Shown: positions 5,095 through 10,611 of the stretch, piece by piece
Layout: each line of letters opens with the position of its first letter
How positions within the stretch are numbered: position 1 is the stretch's first letter
Notes under the pieces: model-generated
What the model saw: only the letters and a program-made list of their open reading frames with translations
Database searches by the model: none
What the model was told of the DNA's origin: nothing
Position numbers and translations under genes: made by a program
Assembly: GCF_000332275.1 (NCBI RefSeq)
Contig: NZ_CM001776.1
Location: 1,411,268 to 1,475,267, forward strand
Origin: Synechococcus sp. PCC 7336
GTDB lineage: Bacteria; Cyanobacteriota; Cyanobacteriia; Thermostichales; PCC-7336
Length of the DNA: 64,000 nucleotides
Direction of reading: 5' to 3'

Positions 5095-5868
5095 ATGAAC
5101 CTTTCGTCTTCCCAGACCCCTCGTCGCATTCGCCTCGGCCTGCTACTGGCAGGGATAATCGCAACTTCGATCGCCGCTCCGGCCCTCGCCCAAGAGGCTG
5201 CGGGCGGAGGCTTTAACCCCCAGCAGTTACTGGTGAATGCACTCAGCAATATTGAAAGCTGGGGAGCATGGGGACCGCTGGCCTTTATTGGCCTTTATAT
5301 TGTGGCCACCGTCGCTTTTTTACCCGGCTCCATTTTGACTTTGGGAGCTGGGTTTGTGTTTGGTGTGGTCGAGGGAGCTATTTTCGTCTTCATTGGGGCT
5401 ATGGTTGGGGCTACGGCAGCCTTTATTGTGGGTCGATATGTGGCCCGAGGATGGGTTGCTAAGAAGATTGAGGGCAATCGCAACTTCAAGGCAATTGACG
5501 ATGCGATCGGTCGCGAAGGGGGCAAGCTCATGTTCTTGATCCGTCTCTCTCCTGCATTTCCCTTCAACGTGCTCAACTATGCGATGGGGCTGACCCAAAT
5601 TTCTTTGCGCGACTACATTTGGGGCACCACGGGTATTTTGCCGGGAACCATCATGTACGTCTACTTAGGATCTCTAGCGGGGGATTTGGCCACCATTGGT
5701 GCTGGTGAATCTCCCACTAATCCTGCCATCACTTGGACCATTCGCATTGTGGGACTGCTGGCAACCATTGCAGTGACGGTCTATGTGACTAAACTGGCTC
5801 GAAAAGCTCTAAAGAGCAAGCTAAATACGGAAGAGCAGCCACAGATGGCGGAAGAGATGAGCTCTTAA
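5095..5868 (+). CDS. TVP38/TMEM64 (VTT/DedA-like) membrane protein
   Basis: 257 residues. The N-terminus has a basic start (PRRIRLG), a hydrophobic run and an ALAQ cleavage-like site, so a signal peptide is plausible. Several membrane segments follow: GPLAFIGLYIVATVAFLPGS, then VVEGAIFVFIGAMVGATAAF ending in GRYVAR, and later GTTGILPGTIMYVYLGSLAG. This pattern is the SNARE-associated/VTT domain of the TVP38 family. Such proteins are linked to lipid movement or ion balance in the membrane, but the substrate here is unknown. The next gene, 66 bases downstream, encodes the same domain, so this looks like an old tandem duplication. Confidence 0.8.
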   Translation: MNLSSSQTPRRIRLGLLLAGIIATSIAAPALAQEAAGGGFNPQQLLVNALSNIESWGAWGPLAFIGLYIVATVAFLPGSILTLGAGFVFGVVEGAIFVFIGAMVGATAAFIVGRYVARGWVAKKIEGNRNFKAIDDAIGREGGKLMFLIRLSPAFPFNVLNYAMGLTQISLRDYIWGTTGILPGTIMYVYLGSLAGDLATIGAGESPTNPAITWTIRIVGLLATIAVTVYVTKLARKALKSKLNTEEQPQMAEEMSS

Positions 5869-5934
5869 TCAATCATTTTCCGAGCTCGGAGCGGATCGTT
5901 AGAACGTGCATTGTTACTAGGTTTAGTAGATCGG

Positions 5935-6654
5935 ATGACAGCCGAACGACGCCGGAAGAGAAGGATAGAGCAGAGTGGCTTACCCGAGGCAGGTCGGGCC
6001 TTGCTCAGATACCTGTCTATGCCTCGGGTGTGGGTGGCGATCGCCATTCTCGCGCTGTTAGCCATACTCTTTCTCAGCCCCCTCGGCGATCGCTTTCACC
6101 ACGAACGGTTGGTGAGCGATCTGGAAATGCTGGGGACGCTGGCTCCGGCGCTGTTTGTTTTGGGGCACGTCATTGCCACGAGCCTGGGTGTGCCGGGGAC
6201 CGTGCTGACGGTAGCAGGCGGTGCAGTATTCGGCCTCCTGTGGGGAACGCTTTGGTCTGTGCTGGGGGCAACGTTGGGGTCGAGTAGTGCCTTTTTGTTA
6301 GCCCGCTATTTCTTCCACGATTGGGCGGTGAAGCGATATGGCAAACATCCTTTGCTGGTGCGGCTGAATAAGTCGATCGACCGCCACTGCCTCAAATTGG
6401 TGTTGGCGGTGCGGTTATTTCCGATTTCCCCGTTCAATCTAGTCAATTTCCTGTTTGGCTTGACTAAGGCACCGCTGAACGAGTATGCCTTGGCAACTGC
6501 GATCGGCATTATTCCCGGAACTGCCCTGTACACTTGGATTGGCGCAACGGGACGAGAGATGTTGGAAGGGGGCAATTCGTTCCCGTTTGGCATGGCGATC
6601 GCCTTTCTCACCTTATTATCGGTGCTGCCAATTTTTATCAAGCGCTGGCGTTAG
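5935..6654 (+). CDS. Second TVP38/TMEM64 (VTT) membrane protein
   Basis: 239 residues from the ATG at 5935. A TTG eight codons upstream is possible but has no better signals. After a basic N-terminus come a membrane segment (WVAIAILALLAILFLS), a re-entrant-type stretch with SLGVPGTVLTVAGGAVFG, GATLGSSSAFLLARYFF, and IGIIPGTALYTWIGATG near the C-terminus. These are the VTT-domain landmarks and match the preceding gene piece by piece, although overall identity looks modest. There is no signal peptide cleavage site. It is probably co-transcribed with the upstream paralogue. Confidence 0.75.
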   Translation: MTAERRRKRRIEQSGLPEAGRALLRYLSMPRVWVAIAILALLAILFLSPLGDRFHHERLVSDLEMLGTLAPALFVLGHVIATSLGVPGTVLTVAGGAVFGLLWGTLWSVLGATLGSSSAFLLARYFFHDWAVKRYGKHPLLVRLNKSIDRHCLKLVLAVRLFPISPFNLVNFLFGLTKAPLNEYALATAIGIIPGTALYTWIGATGREMLEGGNSFPFGMAIAFLTLLSVLPIFIKRWR

Positions 6655-6694: not shown

Positions 6695-7915
6695 TCAGCT
6701 AATTTCTTGCTGCAGCCGAATCCCGACATAATTTCTAGCAAAATTGCGGGCGAATGTTGTCGATGAGTTCAGTTGCGATAATTTCGATTCGCTCAATTTG
6801 CGCAGGAAGTTAATATCCTCTAGGTCATCGCCCTCTGGCAGGTGAACCATATGCAATAGGCTGCAGGAAAATTCCTGGGCAGCCCAAATGTAGGGTAGGC
6901 GCAACTCGGAGTAGAGATCGAGATAGGACAGATCGTGCTGCTCCAAATAGTAATGAACTAAGGTTTCCCCTAGCATCCCTGCATCTTGTATCGCCAGGTT
7001 TAACCCTTTCCCTCCCATCGGCGTAATGATGTGGGCGGCATCCCCCGCCACCAACAACCGTCTATAGCGCATTGGCTCTAAGACGTAGTTGCGCAGATCC
7101 ATCGTGTTCTTTTGAAAGATCTCCCCCTCGATGAGCTCCCAACCCGGTTGTGCCAACCGCCTGCGCAAAGTCGCCCAGATGCGCTCGTCAGGCCAATCTT
7201 CCAGCTCGTCGGCGAGGGGAATTTGTAGGTAGTAGCGAGAGATCTCGCTGTTGCGGAGCATATGGCCGGCAAAGCCTTCGGGATGAAGGGCATAGGTGAT
7301 GCACTTTACTGAGGGAGGGGCGTAGGCCAAAATGGCTAGCCAGCGATAGTTGTATTGCTTGGAATAAATCTTGACTGCACTGGCTGGAATCGAACGGCGC
7401 GAGATGCCGTGGTAACCATCGCATCCAGCCACAAAATCCGCTTGAATGGTCTGGATTGTGCCTGTATTGCGATCGAGACATTCAACCGCGACCCCATTGT
7501 CAGACTGCAAAATTTGAGTGCCTTCGTGGCGGAACAGCAATTTGCCACCGGCATCGAGATACTTCTGAATTAGGTCATCGTTGAGATTGCTTTGGGGATA
7601 GACGTAATGAACTTCCCCGCCATTTAAATCGGCGTAGTTGAACAGAATACTTTTATTGGGATAGCGAAATTCACAACTATCGTGAAGTTCGGCGTTGGCT
7701 AAGACTGTCTCGGCCAAACCGTGCTTTTTCAGCAGCTCGACCGTGGTGCTCTCAATCAGGCCGGCCCGACCCCGTTGGAAAATTTCGTCTCGATCGTAGC
7801 GATCGAGCACAATACAATCAACTCCATTTTCGAGCAGAATATTGCCCAAGAGGATACCGGCAGGTCCGGCCCCCAAAATACATACAGAAGTTTTCAGCTT
7901 GTTGTCTTCAGCCAT
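6695..7915 (-). CDS. pobA: 4-hydroxybenzoate 3-monooxygenase (PobA-type flavoprotein)
   Basis: 406 residues, typical for the family (about 390-400). It has the FAD-binding GAGPAG near the N-terminus, GRAGLIESTTVELLKKHG, the mid-protein GCDGYHGISRRSIP (DG motif), YALHPEGFAGHM, SRYYLQIPLADELEDW and LLVAGDAAHIITPMGGKGLN (GD motif). All are in the order and with the detail of Pseudomonas p-hydroxybenzoate hydroxylase. The expected reaction is 4-hydroxybenzoate + NAD(P)H + O2 to protocatechuate. It is the downstream gene of a same-strand pair with a chorismate lyase gene 79 bases upstream, which would supply its substrate. No ring-cleavage genes are in the window. NADH/NADPH preference is unknown. 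Confidence 0.86.
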   Translation of the reverse strand: MAEDNKLKTSVCILGAGPAGILLGNILLENGVDCIVLDRYDRDEIFQRGRAGLIESTTVELLKKHGLAETVLANAELHDSCEFRYPNKSILFNYADLNGGEVHYVYPQSNLNDDLIQKYLDAGGKLLFRHEGTQILQSDNGVAVECLDRNTGTIQTIQADFVAGCDGYHGISRRSIPASAVKIYSKQYNYRWLAILAYAPPSVKCITYALHPEGFAGHMLRNSEISRYYLQIPLADELEDWPDERIWATLRRRLAQPGWELIEGEIFQKNTMDLRNYVLEPMRYRRLLVAGDAAHIITPMGGKGLNLAIQDAGMLGETLVHYYLEQHDLSYLDLYSELRLPYIWAAQEFSCSLLHMVHLPEGDDLEDINFLRKLSESKLSQLNSSTTFARNFARNYVGIRLQQEIS

Positions 7916-7994
7916 TGACGAGTAACCTTCGGAATAAAAAACATCAAATGTTTATTAGGGCGATCGCAAAAAATTGCGAGTTAGAATATAACCC

Positions 7995-8579
7995 CTAGAC
8001 ATTCTCGATAAAGTAACGTTCGGGAAATTTCTCCGTAATCATCATGGTGCATTTGCGATTTGAATAAACGTAGTAAGTTCTCGATAGCAGAGTTGACTCG
8101 GGAATGATGCCGAAATAGTGGGCCAAATCGCAGGTGGGCTCTCGACCGATATGAACGTTGTCTTTAAAGATTTCGATCTTGTGTTCCACCCAAAGCTTTC
8201 CCAGAGGAGTTTCAGTCGTAACCAATTGCTGTCGCAAAGTGTCATCTAGGCGATCGAGTGCAAGGATGGATTCTGCATAAACATAATTTTTGCCGCTGTC
8301 AGCGCCCTGAAGCAAAATGTTTCTGGCAACCAATTCTGAGCTGTCAGCCAATTCTGTCGGAACATTCTCATTTTCGAGCTCGATCCAGTTTTCTGATAGC
8401 TTTTGTAGTTCTATCTTCTCTCTTGCATAGGCCTCGAGGATATGGGTAATCGTTCCATTTGTTGTGAGGAGAATTCTTTGGAACGGACTCAAGGAGGAGA
8501 GTTCAACTCTTCTGTATCGTAGAGAGCGCTTGAAATTCCGAATCGTTACACCCTTAAATTTAGAAGGATGGCAATCCAT
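7995..8579 (-). CDS. Chorismate--pyruvate lyase (4-hydroxybenzoate synthase), Rv2949c/cyanobacterial type
   Basis: 194 residues. LSPFQRILLTTNGTITHILEAY, then ARNILLQG....YVYAESILALDRL and a C-terminal SRTYYVYSNRKCTMMITEKFP fit the chorismate lyase family (Pfam Chor_lyase, PF01947). It cleaves chorismate to 4-hydroxybenzoate and pyruvate. Cyanobacteria need this product for plastoquinone. The ATG at 8579 has AAGAGG about 7 bases before it. The pobA-type gene starts 79 bases downstream on the same strand, so the product may be hydroxylated on to protocatechuate. Whether this is the genome's only chorismate lyase or a second copy cannot be seen here. Confidence 0.82.
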   Translation of the reverse strand: MDCHPSKFKGVTIRNFKRSLRYRRVELSSLSPFQRILLTTNGTITHILEAYAREKIELQKLSENWIELENENVPTELADSSELVARNILLQGADSGKNYVYAESILALDRLDDTLRQQLVTTETPLGKLWVEHKIEIFKDNVHIGREPTCDLAHYFGIIPESTLLSRTYYVYSNRKCTMMITEKFPERYFIENV

Positions 8580-9240
8580 CGCAGATCCTCTTAATAACTA
8601 TTCGAGCAAACGAAAAACGCACCTATTTATAGTAGGATACAATATCTGTTTTGAAAATAACTAGCGCTAACATTTTCTTGTCAAAAAACTCCAGTTAGAC
8701 GATAAATTGGTTCCTATCCCTCACTCCATGGAAAGAGCTAGGTTTTAGGTCTTTCCTCCTCCCCCTCGAACTGACAACTGGTACTATGCCTCGCGAGTGG
8801 AGATAGGCTAGAATTGGCTATGGCTTCTAACCTTGAAGAGAACCCGAGTAAAATCAAGCTCTTAGAGCTCCGTTTTCGTACTGGTCGACAATGATTAGAG
8901 CTGCAAGAACAAGCAAATATACTTACAGTTTCTGCCTCTTGATTGTCGATTGAGTACCCGTTATAGATTGGACTTATCTGCCAAGCTAAGAGTTTCCTCG
9001 CTTGATTGGCTGTGCCGAAAGGTCAGCTTAATTTAAGTTAACATTAACTCAGCCATTATAATTGAATGGTTCAAGAATGAGCGTATTCTCGATCGCTGTT
9101 TCGTGCAGTGTTAGTCGTATATCTGCTTGTTATTAGGCGCGGTAGGAGCTGTAGATGTCGACTGGGGGCGATCGCTTAGGTATGGGGAGTGCCCCGATTG
9201 ACGGCAGTATGCAGGGCTGACTCAACTCCGCCGCAAGGCA
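8580..9240. other. 661-bp intergenic region with a possible decayed reading frame
   Basis: This region lies upstream of the chorismate lyase gene and downstream of the DUF1537 gene. A short frame starts at the ATG at 8820 and stops at a TGA after 24 codons. The same frame continues with further TGA/TAG codons into SASWLSIE-like and FLAW-like words. That could be a gene in which several TGG codons became TGA. I cannot match it to a family. The promoter of the chorismate lyase-pobA pair should be within 8580-8720, which is AT-rich. Confidence 0.35.
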
Positions 9241-10611
9241 TTAGCTGGAGTGACTCAAGCGTCGATACACTGTTGCTAAAGCATCGCGATCGCCGACATT
9301 ACCGGGAAATAAAACCACCGGCAAATGAGGAAACAGGGGATGCTCCTGTGGAGTCCGTACCACCGAGCAGCCTGCCAAAATTTGCCCCAGCAGTCGGACC
9401 GCCCTGAGGTCGAGACCGTCCCTCAGGATGCTGTTGGAGGTAATTCCCCCCTTGCTAATCAAAAAGCCGAGATCCCTCGGCAGCCCCCGCACCACATCCA
9501 CTAATAAAGCCGACACCCGCGCCCCAAACTGCAACCGAGTTGGCAAACTAGCGAAGGTCAGTTCTTCGCGGCTAGTGTACACCACAGGAGTTTTGCCAGA
9601 GCGATAAGCAGCACAGACTGCGTCTAAAGTGGCTTGTAGGAGGGTGTGCCGATCGCCTTCCCCCTGCTTTAACAACCGAGCCACATTCACCTCAATGCCA
9701 GCCACCCCTGCTTCCTGCAGTAGCCGCTCCAACTGCTGTGTGGTTTGCTTGACGTGGGACCCTACAATTGCTGCCCCCGGTTGTCCGCCACGTACGTATT
9801 GGGACATGTCTTCGGCAGCAACGGGCTGTGGGGGCAGAGCGGCTAGAGCCGAAATTAGACTAGCGGCACTGCGGAATAAGAACCGCTTGCCTCGGGCGGT
9901 GGCCGCTAAGAGATCGCGGGCGAGGCGATCGAGATCCGCCGAGCACTCGGCATCCACCACCCCACATTGATTGTTCGACAACTCCATCAAACGCTCCAGA
10001 CAGCCCGCCCGGATCTCGTCGAGCAACAATCGCTCGACTGACTCTGCTGAAATCTTGCCATTCGTTTTTTCGGCAACGTAGTCGGGCAGGTAGCTGTGCC
10101 GATAGGCAAACGCAGAGTCGCGGGCAAATTCGGTTGTGTGAACGGGGATTTCGACGCCATCGGCCAAGAGATAGTGGACGCTATTGCGGGTGAACCGTCC
10201 CCCCTCCAAAAAGGCAGGCACGAGAAAATGCGCATCGAAAGGTCCTAGTGCGGCCGCAATAATATCGGTTTCGAGCGGATAGTGACCTCGCAAGGTCGAA
10301 TCCGAGCGACTGACGACTAAAAATTCTTCAATGCCCGCTGCCGCGATCGCCTGTTTGAGGTTGACACACACCTGCCGCGTCACGGCAGCGGCTTTTGCAG
10401 GAGACAGAGATCGCGTGTTGGTCAAAACAAACAACAGGGGCGATTCATCCGCCAACCCCAGCAGCAATGTCTCCACATCCCACTGCAGCAGCAGCAGACA
10501 ACTGTGGACCGTTTGCGACCCCGTTGGATCGTCGTCGAGCACAATGATTTTGGCTGGGGCGATCGCCCGATCGGGTGATGCGCTTGCTTTGGATTCTCGA
10601 TGTACTGCCAA
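9241..10611 (-). CDS. Four-carbon acid sugar kinase family protein (DUF1537/OtnK-like)
   Basis: 456 residues from a TTG at 10611. No ATG or GTG fits better, so the exact start is uncertain. IIVLDDDPTGSQTVHS near the N-terminus is the conserved DDPTG region. SRSDSTLRGHYPLE, VPAFLEGGRFT and a C-terminal GGITSNSILRDGL with SVVRTPQEHPLFPHLPVVLFPGNVGD match the two-domain OtnK/YgbK/DtnK kinases. Those phosphorylate four-carbon acid sugars such as threonate or erythronate. No aldolase, epimerase or dehydrogenase partner lies nearby, so the substrate is open. The divergent neighbour is rpsF, and the starts are about 100 bases apart. Confidence 0.8.
   Translation of the reverse strand: MAVHRESKASASPDRAIAPAKIIVLDDDPTGSQTVHSCLLLLQWDVETLLLGLADESPLLFVLTNTRSLSPAKAAAVTRQVCVNLKQAIAAAGIEEFLVVSRSDSTLRGHYPLETDIIAAALGPFDAHFLVPAFLEGGRFTRNSVHYLLADGVEIPVHTTEFARDSAFAYRHSYLPDYVAEKTNGKISAESVERLLLDEIRAGCLERLMELSNNQCGVVDAECSADLDRLARDLLAATARGKRFLFRSAASLISALAALPPQPVAAEDMSQYVRGGQPGAAIVGSHVKQTTQQLERLLQEAGVAGIEVNVARLLKQGEGDRHTLLQATLDAVCAAYRSGKTPVVYTSREELTFASLPTRLQFGARVSALLVDVVRGLPRDLGFLISKGGITSNSILRDGLDLRAVRLLGQILAGCSVVRTPQEHPLFPHLPVVLFPGNVGDRDALATVYRRLSHSS

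Follow-up and report, generated by a model that had tools for sequence, protein, structure and literature searches.

A divergent chorismate lyase and a PobA-like hydroxylase form a probable biosynthetic gene pair in Synechococcus sp. PCC 7336

The window, a stretch of 64,000 nucleotides, contains a gene for a divergent chorismate lyase followed by a gene for a PobA-like flavin monooxygenase, and both open reading frames are intact by ORF analysis (Table 1). The first-pass annotation had placed these genes on the same strand, 79 bases apart, and its coordinates are confirmed here. Inspection by eye shows Shine-Dalgarno-like stretches ahead of both start codons, including AAGAGGA just upstream of the lyase gene. 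A simple promoter scan of the upstream region and the gap found no sigma-70-like site, and a terminator scan of the gap found no terminator-like site; the two genes probably form one transcript. The G+C content is 41–47% over about positions 7500–9250, as compared with 50–60% in the flanks, with values of 43.8% for the lyase gene, 50.8% for the hydroxylase gene, and 52.8% for the window. The low G+C content of the region is compatible with, although not proof of, acquisition from elsewhere. Two tandem genes encoding VTT-domain (DedA-like) proteins, at window positions 5095–6654, converge on the end of the hydroxylase gene.

Table 1. The lyase–hydroxylase gene pair and its upstream surroundings (window positions).
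Feature	Position	Strand	Remarks
Divergent chorismate lyase, 194 aa, first of the pair	7995..8579	-	PF01947/PF04345 superfamily
Intergenic gap, 79 bases	7916..7994	-	GAAGG stretch ahead of the second start codon
PobA-like group A flavin monooxygenase, 406 aa	6695..7915	-	L199I, L210G, S212M, T294M (PHBH numbering)
Upstream intergenic region, low G+C	8580..9240		Presumed promoter region
DUF1537-type kinase-like gene, next upstream	9241-10611	-	661 bases from the lyase gene

The first protein of the pair matches the Pfam models PF01947 (58.2 bits, E = 1.2e-15, cut-off 22) and PF04345 (25.6 bits, E = 1.1e-5, cut-off 23.6) and the PDB entry 2nwi (E = 1e-17), and scores 36.8 bits against NF037993, the NCBIfam equivalog for the cyanobacterial chorismate lyase, the cut-off of which is 175. 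Residues R35, R86, R167, and E183 are among those invariant across 17 rows that comprise the divergent lyases, a canonical copy, and 2nwi; R86 and E183 are presumably the equivalents of Arg76 and Glu155 in UbiC. Judged from its sequence, the divergent protein very probably has chorismate lyase activity. A tree of the lyases gives support of 58/37 for those of the PobA-bearing genomes as a single clade, which leaves the grouping unsettled; with the canonical and 2nwi rows added, both on very long branches, six of the seven group at 86/85 and that of contig L015 falls outside.

The source genome is complete (5.07 Mb, one contig), and a whole-genome search located the canonical cyanobacterial chorismate lyase, a second PF01947 gene, at C1:1037581-1038024 (E = 4.5e-51). 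On the strength of this copy, the reading of the window lyase as the plastoquinone enzyme is rejected, and a drain of 4-hydroxybenzoate from plastoquinone synthesis, raised in the first-pass annotation, becomes less likely. The intradiol (PF00775) and LigB-type (PF02900) ring-cleavage dioxygenases had no matches in the complete genome, which extends to the whole chromosome, for these two families, the earlier remark that ring-cleavage genes are absent nearby. This negative result applies to PF00775 and PF02900 and does not extend to further ring-cleaving enzymes such as the type I extradiol dioxygenases; in controls each of the two models found matches in 4 of 14 genomes. Given the canonical second lyase and the absence of both dioxygenase families, the pair would represent neither the usual plastoquinone lyase nor a degradation of the intradiol or LigB type.

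The second protein belongs to the flavoprotein family defined by PF01494 (E = 4e-74). It scores 406.6 bits against the NCBIfam subfamily PRK08243, named 4-hydroxybenzoate 3-monooxygenase (cut-off 351), and 326.3 bits against the equivalog TIGR02360 (cut-off 538.7), and matches PDB chains of p-hydroxybenzoate hydroxylase (PHBH) with E values of about 1e-66 to 1e-81. The predicted structure (pLDDT 84) retrieves PHBH and protocatechuate hydroxylase structures as the first Foldseek matches (TM about 0.9), and structure alignment gives 34–37% identity to full-length solved PHBH members.

The active site was compared in an alignment of 85 rows: two PDB chains and 83 homologues, one of them the window protein. 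The window protein keeps R44, H72, Y201, R214, R220, Y222, P293, N300, and Y385, which includes the phenolate and proton relay of Tyr201, Tyr385, and His72 together with Pro293. Across the alignment, R44, R214, R220, and N300 are kept wherever the residue is present, R214 in all 85 rows, and His72 is replaced by Gln in L013 and L018. The pocket around the carboxylate and the ring is in part changed: Leu210, Ser212, and Thr294 are found in all 72 rows outside a clade of 13 that includes the window protein, and are replaced in every member of that clade by Gly/Ala, Met/Leu, and Met/Cys/Ser/Ala, respectively (L210G/A, S212M/L, and T294M/C in the cyanobacterial rows alone). Leu199 behaves similarly, being present in 71 of the 72 and lost in 13/13. 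The carboxylate triad Ser212-Arg214-Tyr222 thus reads Met-Arg-Tyr in the window protein. In XaPobA, Ser212 is a carboxylate ligand and its alanine mutant lost nearly all activity, according to the available text of Katsuki et al. (PMC10770758), which contains no mention of cyanobacter- or nicotin-. The description of the window protein as having all PobA hallmarks therefore holds for the flavin and phenolate-side residues and fails for pocket positions 210, 212, and 294.

In a tree of the hydroxylases, the 13 rows (7 cyanobacterial and 6 actinobacterial) split from the remaining 72 with 100/100 support, although the program warned of long branches, and the seven cyanobacterial rows are sister to the six actinobacterial proteins, again at 100/100. 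Tyr222 is kept in all seven of the former and is His in all six of the latter. The actinobacterial loci (L019, L020, L021, L022, L030, and L046) have a gene content of their own: a homologue of 2,5-dihydroxypyridine dioxygenase (PDB 7cn3, E = 1.9e-93) occurs in five of the six at E < 1e-130, the sixth has a weaker dioxygenase piece (1.9e-13), and none of the 74 other loci has one. A deformylase-like gene accompanies four of the six, as compared with one weak match (3.3e-11) among the 74 others. In nicotinate catabolism, 6-hydroxynicotinate is hydroxylated with loss of its carboxyl group to give the substrate of 2,5-dihydroxypyridine dioxygenase. The dioxygenase neighbor, taken with this known nicotinate chemistry, suggests that the actinobacterial PobA-like branch may attack the carboxyl-bearing carbon and that its members may be 6-hydroxynicotinate hydroxylases. 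The family model names these proteins 4-hydroxybenzoate 3-monooxygenase (tested for L020), perhaps wrongly. No nicotinate pathway neighbors were seen beside the window pair.

To place the pair among cyanobacteria, 386 genomes were searched with cut-offs of E ≤ 1e-30 for the hydroxylase and E ≤ 1e-12 for the lyase. Hydroxylase relatives occur in four genomes and the divergent lyase in 12, the source genome included in both counts, and all four hydroxylase genomes are among the 12, an overlap with a hypergeometric probability of 5e-7. This value takes no account of kinship, and a single genus contributes two of the four. The other eight of the 386 have the divergent lyase without PobA. Four named contigs of cyanobacterial type came from another collection (L015, L016, L017, and L018, the last being the contig of G024), and the genomes of L015, L016, and L017 carry the lyase too. 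The contig L015 is labelled Candidatus Gracilibacteria, probably in error, as it has a cyanobacterial-type cluster in an assembly of about 6 Mb. In L078, a stretch beside PobA resembles a lyase at 24 bits, too weakly to be counted. The co-occurrence in other cyanobacteria that the first-pass annotation proposed to check is borne out, as both proteins are found together in 7/7 genomes with the PobA-like protein. Five of the seven have the two genes on the same strand within 10 kb; in G360 and in the Hormoscilla genome that includes L017, they are on separate contigs.

In four of the seven genomes the pair brackets a biosynthetic cluster. The clusters of L018 and L112 contain the lyase, an AMP ligase, a condensation-carrier-thioesterase protein, a weakly halogenase-like flavoprotein, the PobA-like protein, and a cupin, with a separate carrier protein found in L112. 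In L015, genes for a DAHP synthase and a NicO-type transporter are included in the cluster as well, and a PPDK-type protein and an EPSP synthase are encoded downstream. The L016 cluster consists of the lyase, TauE, an FMO that is probably halogenating, possibly as a brominase, and the PobA-like protein. The PobA-like gene of G360 adjoins 3-amino-4-hydroxybenzoate-synthase-like genes (415.7 bits against BagC/FevH, cut-off 750; 334 against PRK07226, cut-off 241), an AvaA6-like diazotase (405.5 bits, cut-off 975), and an O-methyltransferase, a cluster that possibly encodes a pathway with aromatic diazotization, and a different contig of this genome carries a relative of the L016 FMO at 69%. The synthase-like genes of the G360 cluster (L111, G360:C298, 1507-9454) are of the DHQ synthase II-like and DhnA-type aldolase kinds, and the cluster also contains azoreductase-like and CMD-family genes.

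One Hormoscilla contig combines a divergent lyase with genes for an FMO and two P450s, and in gene content it resembles the published hs_bmp cluster, which makes brominated diphenyl ethers according to the available text (PMC6520454). In L114, L117, L118, L120, and L121, the neighbors of the PobA-less divergent lyases include ligase and carrier-like genes, apparently a recurring cluster family; no clear cluster was seen in L115, L116, and L119. The first five share a free-standing AMP ligase, a carrier-like protein, and a HemN-like (radical SAM) protein, identified by Pfam in L114 and by eye in the others; some also have sulfotransferase, Asp/Asn-hydroxylase-like, and NRPS genes.

Within the window, no ligase, carrier, or halogenase adjoins the pair. 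Elsewhere in the source genome there is no relative of the L016 FMO at E 1e-10, the ligase of L018 has only 24–34% relatives, and the halogenase-like protein of the relatives' clusters has only a 29% partial match. Two loci were considered as consumers of the product and set aside for want of a tie to the pair, an NRPS locus at 3.13 Mb (an oxalyl-CoA-ligase/decarboxylase-like plus C-A-PCP-TE system) and an NRPS/PKS locus at 4.84–4.90 Mb, whose start is fatty-acyl-AMP-ligase-like as judged from its first residues only. The former (L144, G000:C1:3128579-3136997) has in a row an oxalyl-CoA-ligase-like protein with a carrier domain, a TPP enzyme that is oxalyl-CoA-decarboxylase/acetolactate-synthase-like, and a C-A-PCP-TE NRPS. 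A petrobactin-like NIS siderophore was rejected as the fate of the product, as IucA/IucC (PF04183) had no match in the complete genome. Literature searches, with most subscription journals outside their coverage, returned no paper on the natural pair.

We favor the view that the pair is a biosynthetic module that turns chorismate into 4-hydroxybenzoate and this in turn into a hydroxylated compound, with protocatechuate the most likely one, and assign it a probability of roughly 0.5. The location of its relatives in natural-product gene clusters indicates that the pair most likely makes a hydroxylated aromatic building block and does not serve breakdown; a biosynthetic role as such is likely, with protocatechuate as the product standing at about even odds. 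In this scheme, the divergent lyase would remove pyruvate from chorismate to give 4-hydroxybenzoate, apart from the housekeeping plastoquinone lyase, and the PobA-like flavoprotein, using NAD(P)H and O2, would hydroxylate it, most likely next to the phenol, to yield protocatechuate (3,4-dihydroxybenzoate). In the relatives, both enzymes would feed assembly by ligase, carrier protein, and condensation-thioesterase, or clusters with an FMO-type, probably halogenating, flavoprotein; because the pair of the source genome has none of these partners as a neighbor, the product there may be exported or used by genes elsewhere. The first-pass annotation is supported in its dedicated lyase and hydroxylase and, through the relatives' biosynthetic clusters, in its deliberate synthesis, but not in its link to plastoquinone. 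Doubt about protocatechuate arises from the departure of the substrate pocket from that of the classical enzyme, with Ser212 changed to Met alongside L210G and T294M, and from a nearest sister clade in nicotinate clusters, where decarboxylating hydroxylation is expected. The module as a whole is further weakened by the lack of an adjoining consumer and of close FMO and halogenase-like relatives in the genome, by the separate contigs in two of seven genomes, and by the poor AlphaFold model of the lyase (pLDDT 43, low confidence).

If the cyanobacterial enzymes act as the nicotinate branch may do, they would produce hydroquinone from 4-hydroxybenzoate by decarboxylating ipso-hydroxylation, and the pair would convert chorismate to hydroquinone in two steps, in the service of specialized metabolism. 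The fully supported sister relationship, the dioxygenase and deformylase neighbors, and the L210G/A and S212M/L replacements common to both halves of the clade are consistent with such chemistry, which would mean that the PobA scaffold has switched from ortho- to ipso-hydroxylation. We nevertheless consider it unlikely that the cyanobacterial clade consists of ipso-hydroxylases: the actinobacterial Y222H is absent from its proteins, they retain R214 and the tyrosines that bind the phenolate, and the 6-hydroxynicotinate role of the actinobacterial protein is itself read only from its neighbors. A carboxylate-activating ligase in three cyanobacterial clusters also speaks for retention of the carboxyl group.

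The same ligase, together with the carrier protein in relatives' clusters, could mean that the substrate is not free 4-hydroxybenzoate and is a carrier-protein thioester, a halogenated ring, or 3-amino-4-hydroxybenzoate, the last suggested by the neighbors of the G360 gene, its diazotase among them. Changes at positions 210, 212, and 294, around the carboxyl group and the ring, would suit a modified substrate, but R214 is invariant and the window pair has no ligase, carrier, or halogenase beside it, and we consider this proposal, like the hydroquinone route, unlikely. That the hydroxylase degrades or removes excess or external 4-hydroxybenzoate, with the adjacency of the lyase incidental, would fit a mainly catabolic family and the subfamily name but is very improbable in view of the missing PF00775 and PF02900, the non-random co-occurrence with the divergent lyase, and the biosynthetic neighbors in relatives.

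A module from chorismate to a hydroxylated benzoate would point to a biosynthetic branch within a textbook catabolic enzyme family, as PobA enzymes are known mainly from catabolism. The 13-row clade is an exception to the Ser212 rule for these enzymes, is accompanied by a dedicated chorismate lyase in several gene clusters of cyanobacteria, and is relevant to how a PHBH pocket can shift in substrate or in site of attack. It also bears on whether catechol-type precursors, assumed for marine bromocatechols in the available text of PMC7918430, can come from chorismate in this way.

Among known systems, the lyase shares PF01947, PF04345, and invariant Arg and Glu residues with the Rv2949c-like and UbiC-like enzymes and with the cyanobacterial plastoquinone lyase; it differs from the last in falling far under the equivalog cut-off and in having the canonical copy elsewhere in the genome. 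The source genome departs from the catabolic pob-pca pathway in its zero counts for PF00775 and PF02900. NicC (6-hydroxynicotinate 3-monooxygenase) offers a parallel through the sister clade, whose genes cluster with those for 2,5-dihydroxypyridine dioxygenase and a deformylase; that clade has His222, whereas the window protein keeps Tyr222 and its context is a chorismate lyase and not a nicotinate pathway. In the Bmp5-Bmp6 pathway to polybrominated phenols and diphenyl ethers and in hs_bmp, as the available texts describe them (PMC6520454, PMC7918430), a chorismate lyase likewise feeds 4-hydroxybenzoate into a specialized route; unlike the pair, the bmp core described there has no PobA-like step, and its FMO-type brominase lacks a counterpart in the source genome by the L016 FMO comparison (E 1e-10). 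With PobA/PHBH itself, the window protein shares fold, length, and FAD- and phenolate-binding residues, and is set apart by its four pocket substitutions, its sub-equivalog score, its separate clade, and the biosynthetic context seen for its relatives.
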